DNA of 45,511 nucleotides, taken from positions 1-45,511 of the IMG/VR virus record IMGVR_UViG_3300033153_003480. One strand, written 5' to 3'. The position numbers and the translations under genes are program-made. Within the stretch, counting starts at the first letter, position 1. The number at the start of each line of letters is the position of its first letter. Shown one piece after another: positions 3,156-45,511 of the stretch. The notes beneath the pieces were generated by a model. The model was given only the letters and a program-made list of their open reading frames with translations. It was not told the origin of the DNA and made no database searches. This stretch comes from a virus.

Positions 3156-3441
3156 CACTTCCCCTCCCTTGTGGCTTTGGAAATGGCTTTACCTGCGGCC
3201 CCACCTTCTTCTCGTTCGTCTTGCACAGGCGACCACAGCGCGTTAAATTGGTGATTGCGCGTCTGATACTGGTAAGAGGTGCCCGCGTTATCATGCACTC
3301 ATACGCCTCGCTCGGGGTCAGTCTGCCGAAGCCTTCAAATACCTTGAGGACGAGTTGGTCCTGTTTCAAGGTTTTGGTGCGGTACATCTCCAGTTGTTCG
3401 CCGTTCTCTTGCGTTGTGTTGTAGTAGTTACCGACTGCCAT
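3121..3441 (-). CDS. Putative winged-helix DNA-binding protein (106 aa)
   Basis: The ATG at 3441 follows CGGGAGGGCG. Residues of about 24-75 (KTLKQDQLVLKVFEGFGRLT, then PSEAYECM and TSIRRAITNLTRCGRLCKTN) have the pattern of a winged helix: a helix, a recognition-type helix with SIRRAITNL, then a short wing. The same layout is common in phage proteins that shuffle between regulation and replication. Its target is unknown. It could be an early regulator. Confidence 0.6.
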   Translation of the reverse strand: MAVGNYYNTTQENGEQLEMYRTKTLKQDQLVLKVFEGFGRLTPSEAYECMITRAPLTSIRRAITNLTRCGRLCKTNEKKVGPQVKPFPKPQGRGSDELLCADTGRA

Positions 3442-3456
3442 CTTTACGCCCTCCCG

Positions 3457-4531: not shown

Positions 4532-4815
4532 TCTTCGCTCCTTGTCAGTACACCAGATTTTTTTATTGCCGCTTTTAGTTGTTTAGCGCAAGCAAGCCCG
4601 CAGTCTTCCCATAGCGCCTCTTGGCAAGCCTCAAGCAACTCAGGTGCGGCGGCGATTAGGCGGGCGTTAGCTTGGCACTCATCACTATCTAGTCCACAGT
4701 GCCATACGATACCATCTGCATCAGCGATTTCTGCAACTGTCCGCATAGGAGAGCGAACTTCATCGAATCGTTCATCGAATTTCCATTCGCCCGGCGTATG
4801 TTTCTGTTCTGTCAT
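4519..4815 (-). CDS. Phage protein with the ANARLIAAAPELL signature (98 aa)
   Basis: The start is the ATG at 4815, after TAGGAGGGTG. It begins MTEQKHTPGEWKF and contains ANARLIAAAPELLEACQEAL. This pairing of HTPG(P/E)W with NARLIAAAPELL is a very common signature of a small phage protein family of unknown function, especially in phages of Gram-negative bacteria. The end overlaps the next gene by 13 bases. Confidence 0.75.
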   Translation of the reverse strand: MTEQKHTPGEWKFDERFDEVRSPMRTVAEIADADGIVWHCGLDSDECQANARLIAAAPELLEACQEALWEDCGLACAKQLKAAIKKSGVLTRSEECEQ

Positions 4816-5077: not shown

Positions 5078-5254
5078 TCACCTGTATCTGTCGTAGTTAT
5101 CCCTGCTAGCCTCGTCTCGGACTTGAGCATCGTAGGCACTTAATTCATGCGACAATTCTGTCTCGCACGTTCTTGAGCCACAAATACCCACCGTCCGACC
5201 GCCAAAACACATACTATTATCAGTCTCTTCTCCGCATATTTCACAGTTCAACAT
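5078..5254 (-). CDS. Four-cysteine zinc microprotein (58 aa)
   Basis: The ATG at 5252-5254 lies 1 base after the stop of the first operon gene, with a GGGGGG site upstream. The N-terminus MLNCEICGEETDNSMC, with a second pair around CGSRTC, gives a likely zinc site. The C-terminus is acidic and helical (AYDAQVRDEASRDNYDRYR). The second gene of the leftward early operon. Confidence 0.6.
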   Translation of the reverse strand: MLNCEICGEETDNSMCFGGRTVGICGSRTCETELSHELSAYDAQVRDEASRDNYDRYR

Positions 5255-5255
5255 T

Positions 5256-5465
5256 TTAATAGCCCCCCTTTTCATATAAAACTCCGACATTCTCAAGAGC
5301 GTGTTTCTCATAATGACAGATTGCCTGATTGACAGCTTCTTTCTTCCCCATCTTTTCAATGAAGGCAATTTCATAATTTACATCAGCAAGCAGAACTTTT
5401 GTCGCTTGTCTGATGTGTCTTCCGTTCCTCGCCTTCAGTGAATAATTCGTTACTGTCGCTTTCAT
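5256..5465 (-). CDS. First gene of the leftward early operon, hypothetical 69-aa protein
   Basis: The start is the ATG at 5465, with AAGGGGG eight bases upstream and a consensus promoter at 5514-5542. The longer reading from 5576 runs through the promoter and is rejected. The product MKATVTNYSLKARNGRHIRQ continues with TKVLLADVNYEIAFIEKMGK and a helical tail. No family recognised. As the first gene after a strong early promoter it may be a host-takeover or regulatory protein, which is inference from position only. Confidence 0.7.
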   Translation of the reverse strand: MKATVTNYSLKARNGRHIRQATKVLLADVNYEIAFIEKMGKKEAVNQAICHYEKHALENVGVLYEKGGY

Positions 5466-5741: not shown

Positions 5742-5799
5742 GATAGAGGATTACATTGAGAGGATGCAAGATGCAAGCTAACAAAATATCAAACAATCT

Positions 5800-5870
5800 G
5801 ACCCGGCAAGCCGCCGTCCTCTCAATGCCTACCTCGTAGGTTTGTGTCTGCGGTGAGCCGGGTCTTTTAT
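5800..5870 (+). terminator. Structured leader with terminator-like hairpin (possible attenuator)
   Basis: GACCCGGC (5800-5807) pairs with GCCGGGTC (5857-5864), followed by TTTTATT. Inside are CCGC (5811-5814) with GCGG (5850-5853) and a small hairpin CCTAC/GTAGG (5828-5840). The outer stem is GC-rich with a U-rich tail, so it could terminate early or serve as a target for antitermination. The ribosome site of the next gene lies just after it, so it could also control translation. Confidence 0.5.
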
Positions 5871-5882
5871 TATGGAGGTGGC

Positions 5883-6704
5883 ATGAAAGCACCGGAAGCA
5901 ATAAAAGCATTGGAATGTAGGTACGGAGACCATATAACGTTCTCGGAGGTCAAGGACGGTCCGACTTGGGGTGTGCGTCACCGGCGGGTAGATTTCATTG
6001 CTATCAGTAAAAGCTGGTCAAATCTCTGTACTAAGATTTTCGAGGTAAAGGTTAGCAGGTCAGATTTTCTGAATGACAAGAAGTGGCCTGAATATTTAGA
6101 GTTGGGTAATGAATTTTATTGGGTCTGTCCAAAGGGCATGATAAAAAGGAAAGAGGTGGATAGCAGGTGTGGACTGATTTACGTTTACGAAACGGGAACA
6201 TGCCGGACTGTTAAGAAAGCGCTTTTCCAAGATAGAGACCCAGACCCATATTTATTGCTCTATATTCTAATGTGGCGACACGGCACAAAAGAGGCTAAGA
6301 GTAGCCGCGAAGACCGCATGAAACACATAAAAAAAGAGATCGCGGATAGGGATGAGCTAGGCAAGCTATACAGCTTTTTCGTTTCCGACAGACTGGCTGG
6401 GGCTAATCGCGAAATCCGCATCAAAAGAGACGACCTTGCTCAATTGGAACATAGCCTAAAATCTATATTGGGCTGGCTTGAAAAAAAGGGCATGGCGGCA
6501 AGCCAAGCTGTCGCAATGCTGGAAAAGACCGAGGATGTGATGGACTTAATCGAAGAAGTCAACAAGCATCACGTTTATAGCGTGAAGGAAATTTTAACCA
6601 AAGCAAGGCTTTTACACTTAGGGTGGGGTACAAAGAGAAACATAGATGACACGATTATCCTTTTGGAATCAATCAGGGGGGCGATTGTTGGGGCTTCTGG
6701 ATGA
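5883..6704 (+). CDS. MmcB-like nuclease-fold protein
   Basis: The ATG at 5883 is chosen because GGAGGTGGC abuts it; the open frame back to 5844 lies in the structured leader. The product has 273 residues. Its first 110 match the MmcB / PD-(D/E)XK pattern: RHRRVDFIAIS with D37, then KIFEVKVSRSDFLND with E54 and K56, then KKWPEY (67-72). MmcB proteins are linked to DNA repair and mutagenesis in bacteria. The C-terminal part is a long charged helical extension with no recognised domain. It is the first gene of the rightward operon and overlaps the replication gene by 4 bases, so a role at replication or nicked DNA is plausible. Confidence 0.75.
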   Translation: MKAPEAIKALECRYGDHITFSEVKDGPTWGVRHRRVDFIAISKSWSNLCTKIFEVKVSRSDFLNDKKWPEYLELGNEFYWVCPKGMIKRKEVDSRCGLIYVYETGTCRTVKKALFQDRDPDPYLLLYILMWRHGTKEAKSSREDRMKHIKKEIADRDELGKLYSFFVSDRLAGANREIRIKRDDLAQLEHSLKSILGWLEKKGMAASQAVAMLEKTEDVMDLIEEVNKHHVYSVKEILTKARLLHLGWGTKRNIDDTIILLESIRGAIVGASG

Positions 6705-7602: not shown

Positions 7603-7631
7603 TTGACTTTGTATTTAGAGTGTAGTATAAA
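7603..7631 (+). promoter_or_regulatory. Promoter before the virion operon
   Basis: TTGACT (7603-7608), a 17-base spacer, TATAAA (7626-7631), with an A/T-rich stretch (7580-7600) just upstream. It shares CTTGACTTT with the promoter at 5714. The transcript would start near 7638 and read into the terminase genes. Confidence 0.75.
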
Positions 7632-12186: not shown

Positions 12187-12609
12187 ATGTCAACAGAACA
12201 ATCCCAGGAAGAGTACAGTAATTGGTTCGAAGAGCTTGACTCAGGAGAGAGGGAACGCATCACGCAGGTGCTGTATGACAACATACACTCGCCTGTCATC
12301 GCGGTTCTCAAGGAGGCGTACGGGTACCAGAAGAGGTTTTTAGAGACAGAGCTGAACAACATCTCGGCTATGCTCCCGGCCGACATACGGCATATGTGGA
12401 AGGACATCATCGAGGGCAAGATAAAACAGCTTGACTCTAACATCATGGACCTCGACGAAGAGGTGCTGCACGCGACGCTCGACAGCATCACAGCCGAACG
12501 CGAGATGCTTGATAACATCAAGAAGAAGGAGCGGCGCGAGATAAAGGAAATCAAAGAGGCGGACGAACTGAATGAAAAAGAGGGATACATCCCCGGCGAA
12601 GACGACTGA
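12187..12609 (+). CDS. Hypothetical 140-aa helical head protein
   Basis: The ATG follows AAGGAGGGGATA. The protein is acidic and almost all helical, with a coiled-coil-like region (MLDNIKKKERREIKEIKEAD). The position between portal and scaffold suggests a head-assembly or portal-associated protein. No family recognised. Confidence 0.65.
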   Translation: MSTEQSQEEYSNWFEELDSGERERITQVLYDNIHSPVIAVLKEAYGYQKRFLETELNNISAMLPADIRHMWKDIIEGKIKQLDSNIMDLDEEVLHATLDSITAEREMLDNIKKKERREIKEIKEADELNEKEGYIPGEDD

Positions 12610-12769
12610 GGATAAGATAGAGAATATCCTTGACGTGTCTGCACGCTTCTTTCGGCGCATAATAAACGACAAGCCCGACTATCACGGGTCGGTGACGTTT
12701 AATTTCAAAGACGGAGGTTTGACACATCTGAACGAAAAAAAGTCAATAGTTCCGACTGATATAGAATAA
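12572..12769 (+). CDS. Hypothetical 65-aa protein
   Basis: It starts inside the end of the upstream gene, with a weak ribosome site. MKKRDTSPAKTTEDKIENIL is followed by FKDGGLTHLNEKKS. The 38-base overlap is larger than usual here, so translation is likely coupled. Function unknown. Confidence 0.5.
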   Translation: MKKRDTSPAKTTEDKIENILDVSARFFRRIINDKPDYHGSVTFNFKDGGLTHLNEKKSIVPTDIE

Positions 12770-12794
12770 CTATACAGGCGATTAGGAAGAACCT

Positions 12795-12869
12795 AAGCCT
12801 CGTTGATGGTAAGTGAGTCGTATCCCCGATGAAAACGGATACGTGACCATCTGCGGGGCTTTTCTTTTT
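12795..12869 (+). terminator. Three-tier hairpin with U-tract between portal and capsid genes
   Basis: Three nested stems: AAGCCTCG (12795-12802) with CGGGGCTT (12854-12861); GATGGT (12805-12810) with ACCATC (12846-12851); CGTATCC (12819-12825) with GGATACG (12837-12843), loop of 11. A TTTTCTTTTT run follows (12860-12869). It is a strong intrinsic terminator by shape. TTAGG/CCTAA (12782-12796) forms a competing small hairpin whose 3' arm overlaps the base of the long stem. No clear promoter is visible between it and the scaffold gene at 12944. Confidence 0.8.
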
Positions 12870-12943
12870 GCTTCCACGTCTTTAGTACTGGGGCACCCTA
12901 GCCAGTCAAAAAACAGGGTCTAAAAACACTAAGGAGGAAGTCG

Positions 12944-14666: not shown

Positions 14667-15650
14667 ATGGTAGCACCGGACACCACTGTAACTGATTTTC
14701 CAGAGGCCATGAAGGCCGATTCATACGAGATGTTTTGGGAGAGATACGATTCGCTCCCGAAAGTCTTTGACAGAATTTACAACGTGAAAAAGACTGACCG
14801 TCTCTACGACAAGTCAACCTCTGCCGTTGGTAGCGGATTGCTTGAAGAGAAGACCGAGACGGGCAATCTAGCTGAGAAGAAACCCATCCAGGGGTTCACC
14901 GTGTTCTCGAAAGTCCGGGAATGGGGCAAGATCATGTCCATATCCCGGTCGATTAAAGACGACACGATGAAACTCGGGAACTTCTTGAAAGACCAGATGC
15001 CGACCATTGGCACCGAGGTCAACGAGACGATGGAGACCTTCTACGCGCTGCCCTTTAATAAAGGGTTTTTGCTCGCAGGCCACACGGTCTTTAACGGTAG
15101 CGTCGATGGTTTGACCGACGCGCAAGACCCGTCAGGGGACAAACTGTACGACTCGACCGTGCTGTTCAATCTCGCGAACAACCTGAGAGCGAGCAAGGGC
15201 GGCGGACAGTACTACAACGGTCACGCACGTCCGTTCTCGATTTCTAACCTGAAGTTCGTTTACACGCACATGACAGTAAACAACAACAGGAAAGAGAACG
15301 ACACGCTGATGCGTATGGTCCCGGACCAGATAATCGCGAGTCCGAACCTGAAGTTCGATATCGACCCGGTATTGTCGTCGCAGGGCGACCCGTCAACGTC
15401 TAACCGCTCGGATAACCCCGTGCAGAACCTCGTTGACAAGATTTACTGGGACTATCTCGATGACACGAACCAGTGGAGCCTGATGAAGGTCAAGACCGAT
15501 ATGGTCGAAGCCCTTATCCGTCAGGAACCTGAGTTCGACATCTTCGAGGATAAGAAGAGCAAGGGTTGGTTCCTCAGTGTCTATCTGCGGTTTGGTTTTT
15601 CGTGGAAGAACTGGAGAGTCATCACGAGTTCGAACGGCACCACTGTTTAG
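14667..15650 (+). CDS. Major capsid protein, HK97 fold
   Basis: The ATG follows AAAGGAGGAAGG. The 327-residue product has features of the HK97 / Mu gpT-like capsid group: VFSKVREWGKIMSISRSIKD (E-loop side), a long backbone-helix region with FLKDQMPTIGTEVNETMETF, and a C-terminal half with LKFVYTHMTVNNNRKENDTL and a final strand KGWFLSVYLRFGFSWKNWRV. It has no N-terminal protease-cut pro-region long enough to hold a scaffold, which agrees with the separate scaffold gene. It should build the shell. Confidence 0.85.
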   Translation: MVAPDTTVTDFPEAMKADSYEMFWERYDSLPKVFDRIYNVKKTDRLYDKSTSAVGSGLLEEKTETGNLAEKKPIQGFTVFSKVREWGKIMSISRSIKDDTMKLGNFLKDQMPTIGTEVNETMETFYALPFNKGFLLAGHTVFNGSVDGLTDAQDPSGDKLYDSTVLFNLANNLRASKGGGQYYNGHARPFSISNLKFVYTHMTVNNNRKENDTLMRMVPDQIIASPNLKFDIDPVLSSQGDPSTSNRSDNPVQNLVDKIYWDYLDDTNQWSLMKVKTDMVEALIRQEPEFDIFEDKKSKGWFLSVYLRFGFSWKNWRVITSSNGTTV

Positions 15651-42450: not shown

Positions 42451-43446
42451 TTAGGAGTCCTCCTTGTCTTTTTTCTTGTTCAAAACAACTCCCATGCCGC
42501 GACAATCAGGGCAATCGTTGAGCGGCTCGTTTATCGTTTTCACAAGAGCCTTGCAATAGGAGTCTATCTTTTTCTTCAAATCCTCTTGGTTGTCGCCACG
42601 AAATCCTTTAATAGGCTCGTATCCTCCGTAGTTTTCAGGGGAAAATGTCATGGCGAAAACCTCGACAAGCCTCGAATTTCTGTAGCGTGTCTCATGTTTC
42701 GGTTTTCTTCGCTTATGCCAAAGATTTACATCAACCATATATTTCTCAACAACAGCAAGCGCAATTTTCTTTTTCACCGTAAAGCAAAAGTTGTAATCAG
42801 ACGTTATTTCTGCGACTTCGTAATTCATGTGTTGCTTAATATACTGCCGGACGATTCTATAGGTTTGCCCTGATGTGAACTCGCATGGTCTCGCCGGAAG
42901 CAGTATATCGGGAAAGATAATCTTATCAATTAGCTGATGTTGAACTTCTCCCTCCTTTAACTTCGTGGTACCCTCGTTAGCCCATTGTGTTTTCTGGACA
43001 TCATACGCAAACCCCTCGTATTCTCTTACCTCCTTTACCTCCATAAGCAAAACCCATTCAAATTCAACAGCCTCATTAACATCGTCTTGCTTGTCGCTTT
43101 CCTCCCGATACAGGGAGCGTAATTTTGAATATTCATCCCGCCATTCCGTGTACCCATCAACGATGTGTGTAACGACATCTTTTTCTAGCACCATTGGCGC
43201 TTTGTCAGATTGCATGTCTTCATCTATCAACACATACCTGTGATTTATGTCTGGCTGGCTCACGAGTTTTTCTATCTTTTTCGGCACCCCCTTCAATATG
43301 AGCCAATTTTTATGGCATGATTTTTTCGGCAATGCCCCGTCGAAAAATAATCTGCACAAGCCGTCTGAGTTGTATTTTCTATAGTTTTCCTTCTCCTCCT
43401 GAGCAACATAATATTTGTCCTCACACTTAATCGCAACAATCTTCAT
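42451..43446 (-). CDS. Hypothetical 331-aa protein with a C-terminal zinc pair
   Basis: The ATG at 43446 is set by GGGGAGGGGGAG and overlaps the GroES stop (TGATG). Internal CxxC near the C-terminus (CPDCRGMG) suggests one zinc knuckle. Many Lys, Glu and Tyr; it is more A/T-rich in appearance than its neighbours, which may hint at a separate origin. No catalytic motif recognised. Confidence 0.65.
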   Translation of the reverse strand: MKIVAIKCEDKYYVAQEEKENYRKYNSDGLCRLFFDGALPKKSCHKNWLILKGVPKKIEKLVSQPDINHRYVLIDEDMQSDKAPMVLEKDVVTHIVDGYTEWRDEYSKLRSLYREESDKQDDVNEAVEFEWVLLMEVKEVREYEGFAYDVQKTQWANEGTTKLKEGEVQHQLIDKIIFPDILLPARPCEFTSGQTYRIVRQYIKQHMNYEVAEITSDYNFCFTVKKKIALAVVEKYMVDVNLWHKRRKPKHETRYRNSRLVEVFAMTFSPENYGGYEPIKGFRGDNQEDLKKKIDSYCKALVKTINEPLNDCPDCRGMGVVLNKKKDKEDS

Positions 43447-43739
43447 CACTCCCCCTCCCCGAGCAACAACCATACGTCCTCTTCGAGTATGAGTTGGCAC
43501 TCTTCGCCATAGTAGTCTACCTCCATGCCTGCGTACTTGTCCATGAGTATCTTGTCGCCCACGGACACACAGACGGGTACTCGCGTCCCGTCATCCAGTC
43601 TGCGTCCGTTACCCACAGCCCGAACGTCCACAACAACTTGTTTCGTCTGCGCTGACTCCGGGATGTACAAAGTCCCGACTTTCTCAGCCGGATCAATCCG
43701 TTTCACTATCAGTCTGTCGCCGAACGGCACCAGTTCCAT
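43446..43739 (-). CDS. groES: GroES-like co-chaperonin (97 aa)
   Basis: The ATG at 43739 has GGAGGAG six bases upstream. The protein starts MELVPFGDRLIVKRIDPAEK, has the mobile-loop KVGTLYIPESA (about 20-30, hydrophobic LYI) and the core VVVDVRAVGNGRRLDDGTRV, VSVGDKILMDKYAG. All are Cpn10 features and the length fits GroES. Phages such as T4 use their own co-chaperonin with host GroEL to fold capsid proteins. No groEL is present, so it must work with the host's. Confidence 0.88.
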   Translation of the reverse strand: MELVPFGDRLIVKRIDPAEKVGTLYIPESAQTKQVVVDVRAVGNGRRLDDGTRVPVCVSVGDKILMDKYAGMEVDYYGEECQLILEEDVWLLLGEGE

Positions 43740-44818: not shown

Positions 44819-45511
44819 TACTCAGCCGCTCCCGACTGACCCTTGTGCCAGTTCCGTATCTTGCCGAGCGTGGTACTAAGCCACTTGCCCGTCAACTGGT
44901 TCACGCTCGTAACGCCGGGGTTGTCGCCGAACTTCGTGGTCGCCTGCAAGAACTTCTTTGCCGCGTCCTCGGTCGGATGGAACTCCTTTATCATCTGCGC
45001 GATTTCCTTCTGGTGTTCCTTCTCGTCGCATGTCACTTCCTTCTTTCCCTTAAAGTCAACGCCCTTGCAATCCTCTTTCTTGATACCGACTCCCGAGAGT
45101 TCTTCCCACGTGAGGTTGTTAAGGCCGAGCATCTTACGGAGCGCCCTGCCGTGAAAGTTCGCCCGTGCTTTCTTCGTCATGGCGAGATAGTTCTCGTGGT
45201 CATCGCCCATGAACTTCTTTTCTTTGGCGTTCTTGTAGAACCCGCCCTCGTAGCTTGCCTCGATACCGAGTGCGCGTGAACCCATCTTGCCCTTGAAGAT
45301 GACTGCCTGCACCACGCCCTTGTAACAGTCCGGGTCGTCAAGAGAAATCTGTGTCCCGTCTTCGTTTACCACGTACCCCTTGATGGTCTCTTTCCCGTCA
45401 CGATCTAGCACCTCGTGGATACCGAATGGCCCCATGAAAACACTCACGCCGTCATCGTCCACAAAAGGCTTGCCGCCCTGGTTCGTGATGTTTGACGCTT
45501 TCAAGCGCTTC
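44818..45511 (-). CDS. Putative recombination / annealing-type protein (partial, runs off the right edge)
   Basis: The reading continues off the window edge. KASNITNQGGKPFVDDDGVS is followed by a GPFGIHEVLDRDGKETIKGY domain, and RANFHGRALRKMLGLNNLTW resembles helical parts of phage proteins found beside recombinases. On circle closure the N-terminus would come from the gene at 556. It is adjacent to the coiled-coil, Cas4-like and RusA genes, which supports a homologous-recombination role. The family is not identified with certainty. Confidence 0.5.
   Translation of the reverse strand, partial: KRLKASNITNQGGKPFVDDDGVSVFMGPFGIHEVLDRDGKETIKGYVVNEDGTQISLDDPDCYKGVVQAVIFKGKMGSRALGIEASYEGGFYKNAKEKKFMGDDHENYLAMTKKARANFHGRALRKMLGLNNLTWEELSGVGIKKEDCKGVDFKGKKEVTCDEKEHQKEIAQMIKEFHPTEDAAKKFLQATTKFGDNPGVTSVNQLTGKWLSTTLGKIRNWHKGQSGAAE
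45398..45511. repeat. Right copy of 114-bp terminal direct repeat
   Basis: Identical to 238-351, in the same orientation. It ends exactly at the window edge. Confidence 0.9.

Follow-up and report, generated by a model that had tools for sequence, protein, structure and literature searches.

Transcript mapping of the T7-like phage LUZ100 revealed an apparent strong terminator immediately 3' of the capsid gene (PMC10134795). Comparable sites were common when we surveyed phages whose terminases are related: counting the window, 11 of 54 loci carried an intergenic T-run hairpin at or below -18 kcal/mol no more than 8 kb from the terminase. By the window we mean the whole 45,511-nt stretch of viral DNA analysed here. 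Seven of these hairpins were checked. Five lay directly after the capsid gene (phrog_9953; loci L138, L140, L143 and L144 and the annotated record L124). The other two followed a scaffold-like gene (phrog_673; L152 and L129). Like the terminator of LUZ100 and the five post-capsid hairpins, the element described here combines a hairpin and T-run on the sense strand and occupies a non-coding gap in the virion operon. Unlike them, it precedes the scaffold gene, 1.8 kb 5' of the capsid gene, and has a much longer, interrupted stem, a competing hairpin and no recognised local promoter. As in trp-type and riboswitch-type attenuators, a hairpin formed earlier shares six bases with the 5' arm of the terminator. 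Unlike in those attenuators, forcing the earlier hairpin destabilises the full RNA by 7.4 kcal/mol, and the element sits far inside an operon instead of in a leader, with no stabilising signal recognised. In phage T4, a pseudoknot in the gene 32 mRNA serves as an autogenous translational operator; the window may likewise hold an H-type pseudoknot 5' of a phage gene start, although here it is a weak candidate. We regard the element as a probable phage terminator located within an operon, where it would act as a leaky or switchable stop; it has a competing hairpin and is of a kind familiar in phages.

The record is a 45.5-kb virus whose virion operon runs rightward through terminase, portal, two small genes, scaffold, capsid and then tail genes (Table 1). 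The second small gene encodes 65 aa and is coding by codon score; its stop codon (12767-12769) ends 6 nt 5' of the competing hairpin. Both this hairpin and the terminator hairpin lie inside the gap that follows, in which the three frames gave codon-use scores of -0.31, -0.15 and 0.17 (genes 0.32 +/- 0.13). The probable scaffold gene had no PHROG match and was named from its composition and its position ahead of the capsid gene.

Table 1. Features of the virion operon around the terminator hairpin, in window coordinates
Feature	Position	Strand	Basis
Likely virion operon promoter, TTGACT-17-TATAAA	7603..7631	+	Score 11.3, among the four best + strand sites
65-aa gene	12572..12769	+	Codon score 0.40 vs 0.32 +/- 0.13 (known phage genes)
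Non-coding gap, 174 nt	12770..12943	+	Largest gap in the virion operon (gap table)
Competing hairpin, AGGC-(GA)-UUAGG / CCUAAGCCU	12776..12800	+	-8.6 kcal/mol
Terminator stem-loop, three nested tiers	12795..12861	+	MFE -30.1 kcal/mol; reached by 0/1000 shuffles
T-run TTTTCTTTTT, 9/10 T	12860..12869	+	Directly after the stem, same strand (sequence)
Candidate H-type pseudoknot, ACUGG/CCAGU + ACCCU/AGGGU	12887..12919	+	4/500 shuffles of the 57-nt region
Scaffold-gene Shine-Dalgarno, AGGAGG	12932..12937	+	-12.0 kcal/mol with the 16S tail
Probable scaffold gene, 322 aa	12944..13912	+	26% identity to the same-position gene in L210
Major capsid gene	14667..15650	+	23% tblastn match to an annotated capsid protein; weak PHROG head match

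The hairpin and T-run were present where the first-pass annotation had placed them. The segment 12782-12869 folded to -34.8 kcal/mol, against -20.1 +/- 3.1 kcal/mol for 1000 dinucleotide shuffles, none of which was as low. The annotation had described three stems in series; instead, three tiers are nested within one hairpin. The outermost pairs 12795-12803 with 12853-12861 (9 bp including two G-U) and is followed by a 1x1 U-U mismatch. Within it, 12805-12810 pair with 12846-12851 (6 bp), leading through an 8x2 internal loop to a 7-bp tier (12819-12825 with 12837-12843) that closes an 11-nt loop. In line with the earlier remark on its size, the stem-loop spans 67 nt, compared with 24-37 nt for most terminators in related phages. 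On the minus strand, the complement of 12782-12869 folded to -26.5 kcal/mol and was without a T-run. Because the T-run is present on one strand alone, the element belongs to the + strand only.

The hairpin is stable and contains G+C, as intrinsic terminators require. It lacks the compact, uninterrupted stem and short loop that are typical of them, if not strictly defining, having a mismatch, an 8x2 loop and an 11-nt loop. It was absent from the list of a generic terminator scanner that accepts only loops of 3-8 nt. On a d'Aubenton Carafa-type score, the stem taken as 12797-12859 gave +10.6 and that taken as 12795-12861 gave -6.7.

When every T-rich site in the 45.5 kb was ranked, on either strand, this was the second strongest T-run hairpin, after a similar one at 5800-5864. 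When the whole window was shuffled 12 times, its best T-run hairpin was usually at -21 to -29 kcal/mol. Two of the 12 reached -30 or lower, which counts against the terminator reading. Folding energy alone is thus moderately rare genome-wide and not overwhelming. A chance origin is nevertheless unlikely given the energy together with the siting in the operon's only large gap. Rfam 15 gave no match at gathering score for the whole window and nothing relevant for the element at E values up to 10. No DNA similarity of the operon or element to phage records was detected, and a scan of viral contigs for the T-run-plus-stem pattern returned generic terminators and nothing else. A tRNA or tmRNA identity of the element was excluded.

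The alternative stem TTAGG/CCTAA of the first-pass annotation proved real and does overlap the terminator arm, but its extent had been drawn too small. The competing hairpin comprises 9 bp, with arms at 12776-12786 and 12792-12800, and covers six bases of the terminator 5' arm (AAGCCT, 12795-12800). About 1% of shuffles of the 25 nt upstream (20 of 2000) equalled it with the same part of the terminator arm covered. In equilibrium calculations on nascent RNA up to 12852, the competing hairpin had a pairing probability of 0.87-0.96. Once the terminator was complete, the probability was just 2e-6 for the outer and 0.01 for the upper tier of the competing hairpin, and forcing this hairpin in the full RNA gave -27.4 instead of -34.8 kcal/mol. 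An alternative hairpin that excludes the terminator, as attenuators have, is therefore present, since 12795-12800 are common to both structures. No aptamer or leader peptide that could shift the balance was recognised, and no Rfam match was found. A ribosome at the stop codon of the 65-aa gene would presumably mask some of the competing 5' arm, which would favour the terminator. Since its strand is easily displaced in thermodynamic terms, the competing hairpin may have no effect.

No sigma70-like promoter scored well in 12780-12943. The best sites in 12870-12943 reached 5.2 and 4.8, compared with 14.5 and 11.3 for the two clear rightward promoters of the phage. The earlier statement that the stretch from hairpin to scaffold gene lacks a visible promoter was therefore borne out for sigma70. 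The strong promoter at 12870-12943 that, with full termination, would have made this an ordinary terminator was likewise not seen as regards sigma70. That annotation had also suggested that the element sets the ratio of portal to capsid messages. A particle requires far more capsid than portal. Partial termination would cut the scaffold and capsid message below that of portal, the reverse of what is needed, and we thus disfavour this idea. Predicted Shine-Dalgarno pairing was -1.7 kcal/mol for TerL, -7.3 for portal, -12.0 for scaffold and -11.6 for capsid. These strengths suggest that the ratio may be set at translation, with scaffold and capsid favoured. The element may also have the separate regulatory-RNA role that the annotation had offered as an alternative; it matched no Rfam family.

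Relatives of the phage were not found by single-protein searches; alignments gave L125 and L210, and other scans nothing closer. L125 shares 40% identity in the terminase, and the window's portal, scaffold and capsid had no match in it. L210 is the nearest syntenic relative (capsid 47%, portal 38%, scaffold 26%). Its gap before the scaffold gene is just 43 nt and holds no terminator hairpin. Similarity between this gap and that of the window was marginal (18 of 500 shuffles, for one of five gaps compared). No relative had a homologous hairpin or was near enough for a covariation comparison. L210 carries three short H-type pseudoknots, at 3421-3447 (before scaffold), 4617-4644 (156-aa gene) and 5247-5274 (capsid), which follow the pattern CCC-n(1-2)-CGNN-TGN-GGG-n6-NNCG. 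The second stem shows compensatory changes among the copies (CGGT/ACCG, CGGC/GCCG and CGTC/GACG). A strict-geometry search of 4.06 Mb of loci (both strands counted) returned the three L210 copies and four scattered others, and Rfam contained no match for them. In the same genome, the gap before the 156-aa gene has two tandem hairpins at 4670-4735 with similar tips, GGGAAACGCC and GGAAACGCC. The candidate pseudoknot of the window has an 8-nt A-rich third loop and lies 12 nt 5' of the scaffold Shine-Dalgarno. It must be considered weak, since about 20 sites elsewhere in the window equal or beat it.

Taken together, our results make an intra-operon intrinsic (Rho-independent) terminator, leaky or conditional, between the terminase/portal and scaffold/capsid genes the probable reading, which we hold with moderate confidence. 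It is favoured by the strong hairpin with a 9/10 T-run on the sense strand only, by the positive score with the stem bounded at C12859 and by the siting in the largest operon gap. The other strongest T-run hairpin, at 5800-5864, is also in non-coding DNA, and head-module terminators are common in phages with related terminases, both of which argue the same way. A further point in its favour is that the upstream hairpin is predicted to form earlier than the terminator, with whose arm it overlaps. RNA polymerase from the promoter near 7603 would reach the terminator after about 5.2 kb. Since no promoter was recognised for the capsid genes themselves, a useful fraction of polymerases must pass it, either because the terminator leaks or because an antitermination factor overrides it late in infection. 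Until the terminator 3' arm has been made, the upstream 9-bp hairpin would hold the 5' arm. Completing the terminator would then need strand displacement, which may reduce its efficiency or provide a control point. A conditional terminator would act as a switch, delaying capsid and scaffold synthesis until the remaining packaging machinery has been made. The locus lends itself clearly to testing how a single long virion operon, with one recognisable promoter, copes with very unequal protein needs, in a phage group without close relatives in our searches. Against this reading stand the long interrupted stem, unlike that of an efficient compact terminator, and a score whose sign varies with the stem end chosen. 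A terminator without a following promoter also opposes the high demand for scaffold and capsid, and no such hairpin is predicted at the corresponding place in L210.

That demand would be better served if the hairpin were an ordinary unit end and full stop, with scaffold and capsid transcribed from a promoter at 12870-12943 invisible to sigma70 rules, for example one used by a phage factor. We consider this unlikely: the interval lacks a sigma70-like site, the other units of the phage begin at clear sigma70-like promoters, and no promoter-like repeat common to this gap and others occurred among the repeats listed. The capsid message would also gain from an RNA processing or stability element, whose stem is cut by RNase III or shields the downstream (or upstream) message from decay, leaving a stable 5' hairpin on the scaffold/capsid mRNA. 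RNase III could plausibly cut a stem of about 22 bp that has internal loops. Such an element has no need of a T-run, yet the T-run here is good, and L210 is without a corresponding hairpin; this explanation appears less likely still. Joint control of termination and scaffold translation by a regulated leader, with the pseudoknot as a translational operator (e.g. for the scaffold protein), seems very improbable. This reading draws on the candidate pseudoknot ahead of the scaffold Shine-Dalgarno and on the L210 pseudoknot at the same place, whose two other copies, with compensatory changes, precede further head genes. Genome-wide, however, the pseudoknot of the window does not stand out, and it differs from the L210 motif in both sequence and geometry.

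The strongest T-run hairpin in the window, at 5800-5864, is also three-tiered and lies in the non-coding leader of a rightward promoter, beginning about 52 nt past its likely start site. The leader (5748-5883) contains an 11-bp perfect complement, 5754-5764 with 5817-5827, which overlaps the hairpin interior and was equalled in 2 of 500 shuffles. An upstream segment able to pair with part of the hairpin thus occurs at both 5800-5864 and 12795-12869. Sequence kinship between the two hairpins was tested and found to be at chance level. The pair could conceivably be matched attenuators that respond to one phage factor and time the replication and capsid genes separately, but we regard this as quite improbable.

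Two further features of the record were observed. Its right end (45398-45511) is an exact repeat of 238-351, and 56-237 is repeated at 937-1118 with 98% identity; these repeats may mean that the genome is circular or end-redundant, or may mark an assembly joint. On the minus strand, 42451-43500 encodes a homolog of Gad1 (phrog_20113, E 1.6e-77; 32% identity to annotated Gad1), known from SPbeta-like phages as an anti-Gabija protein.
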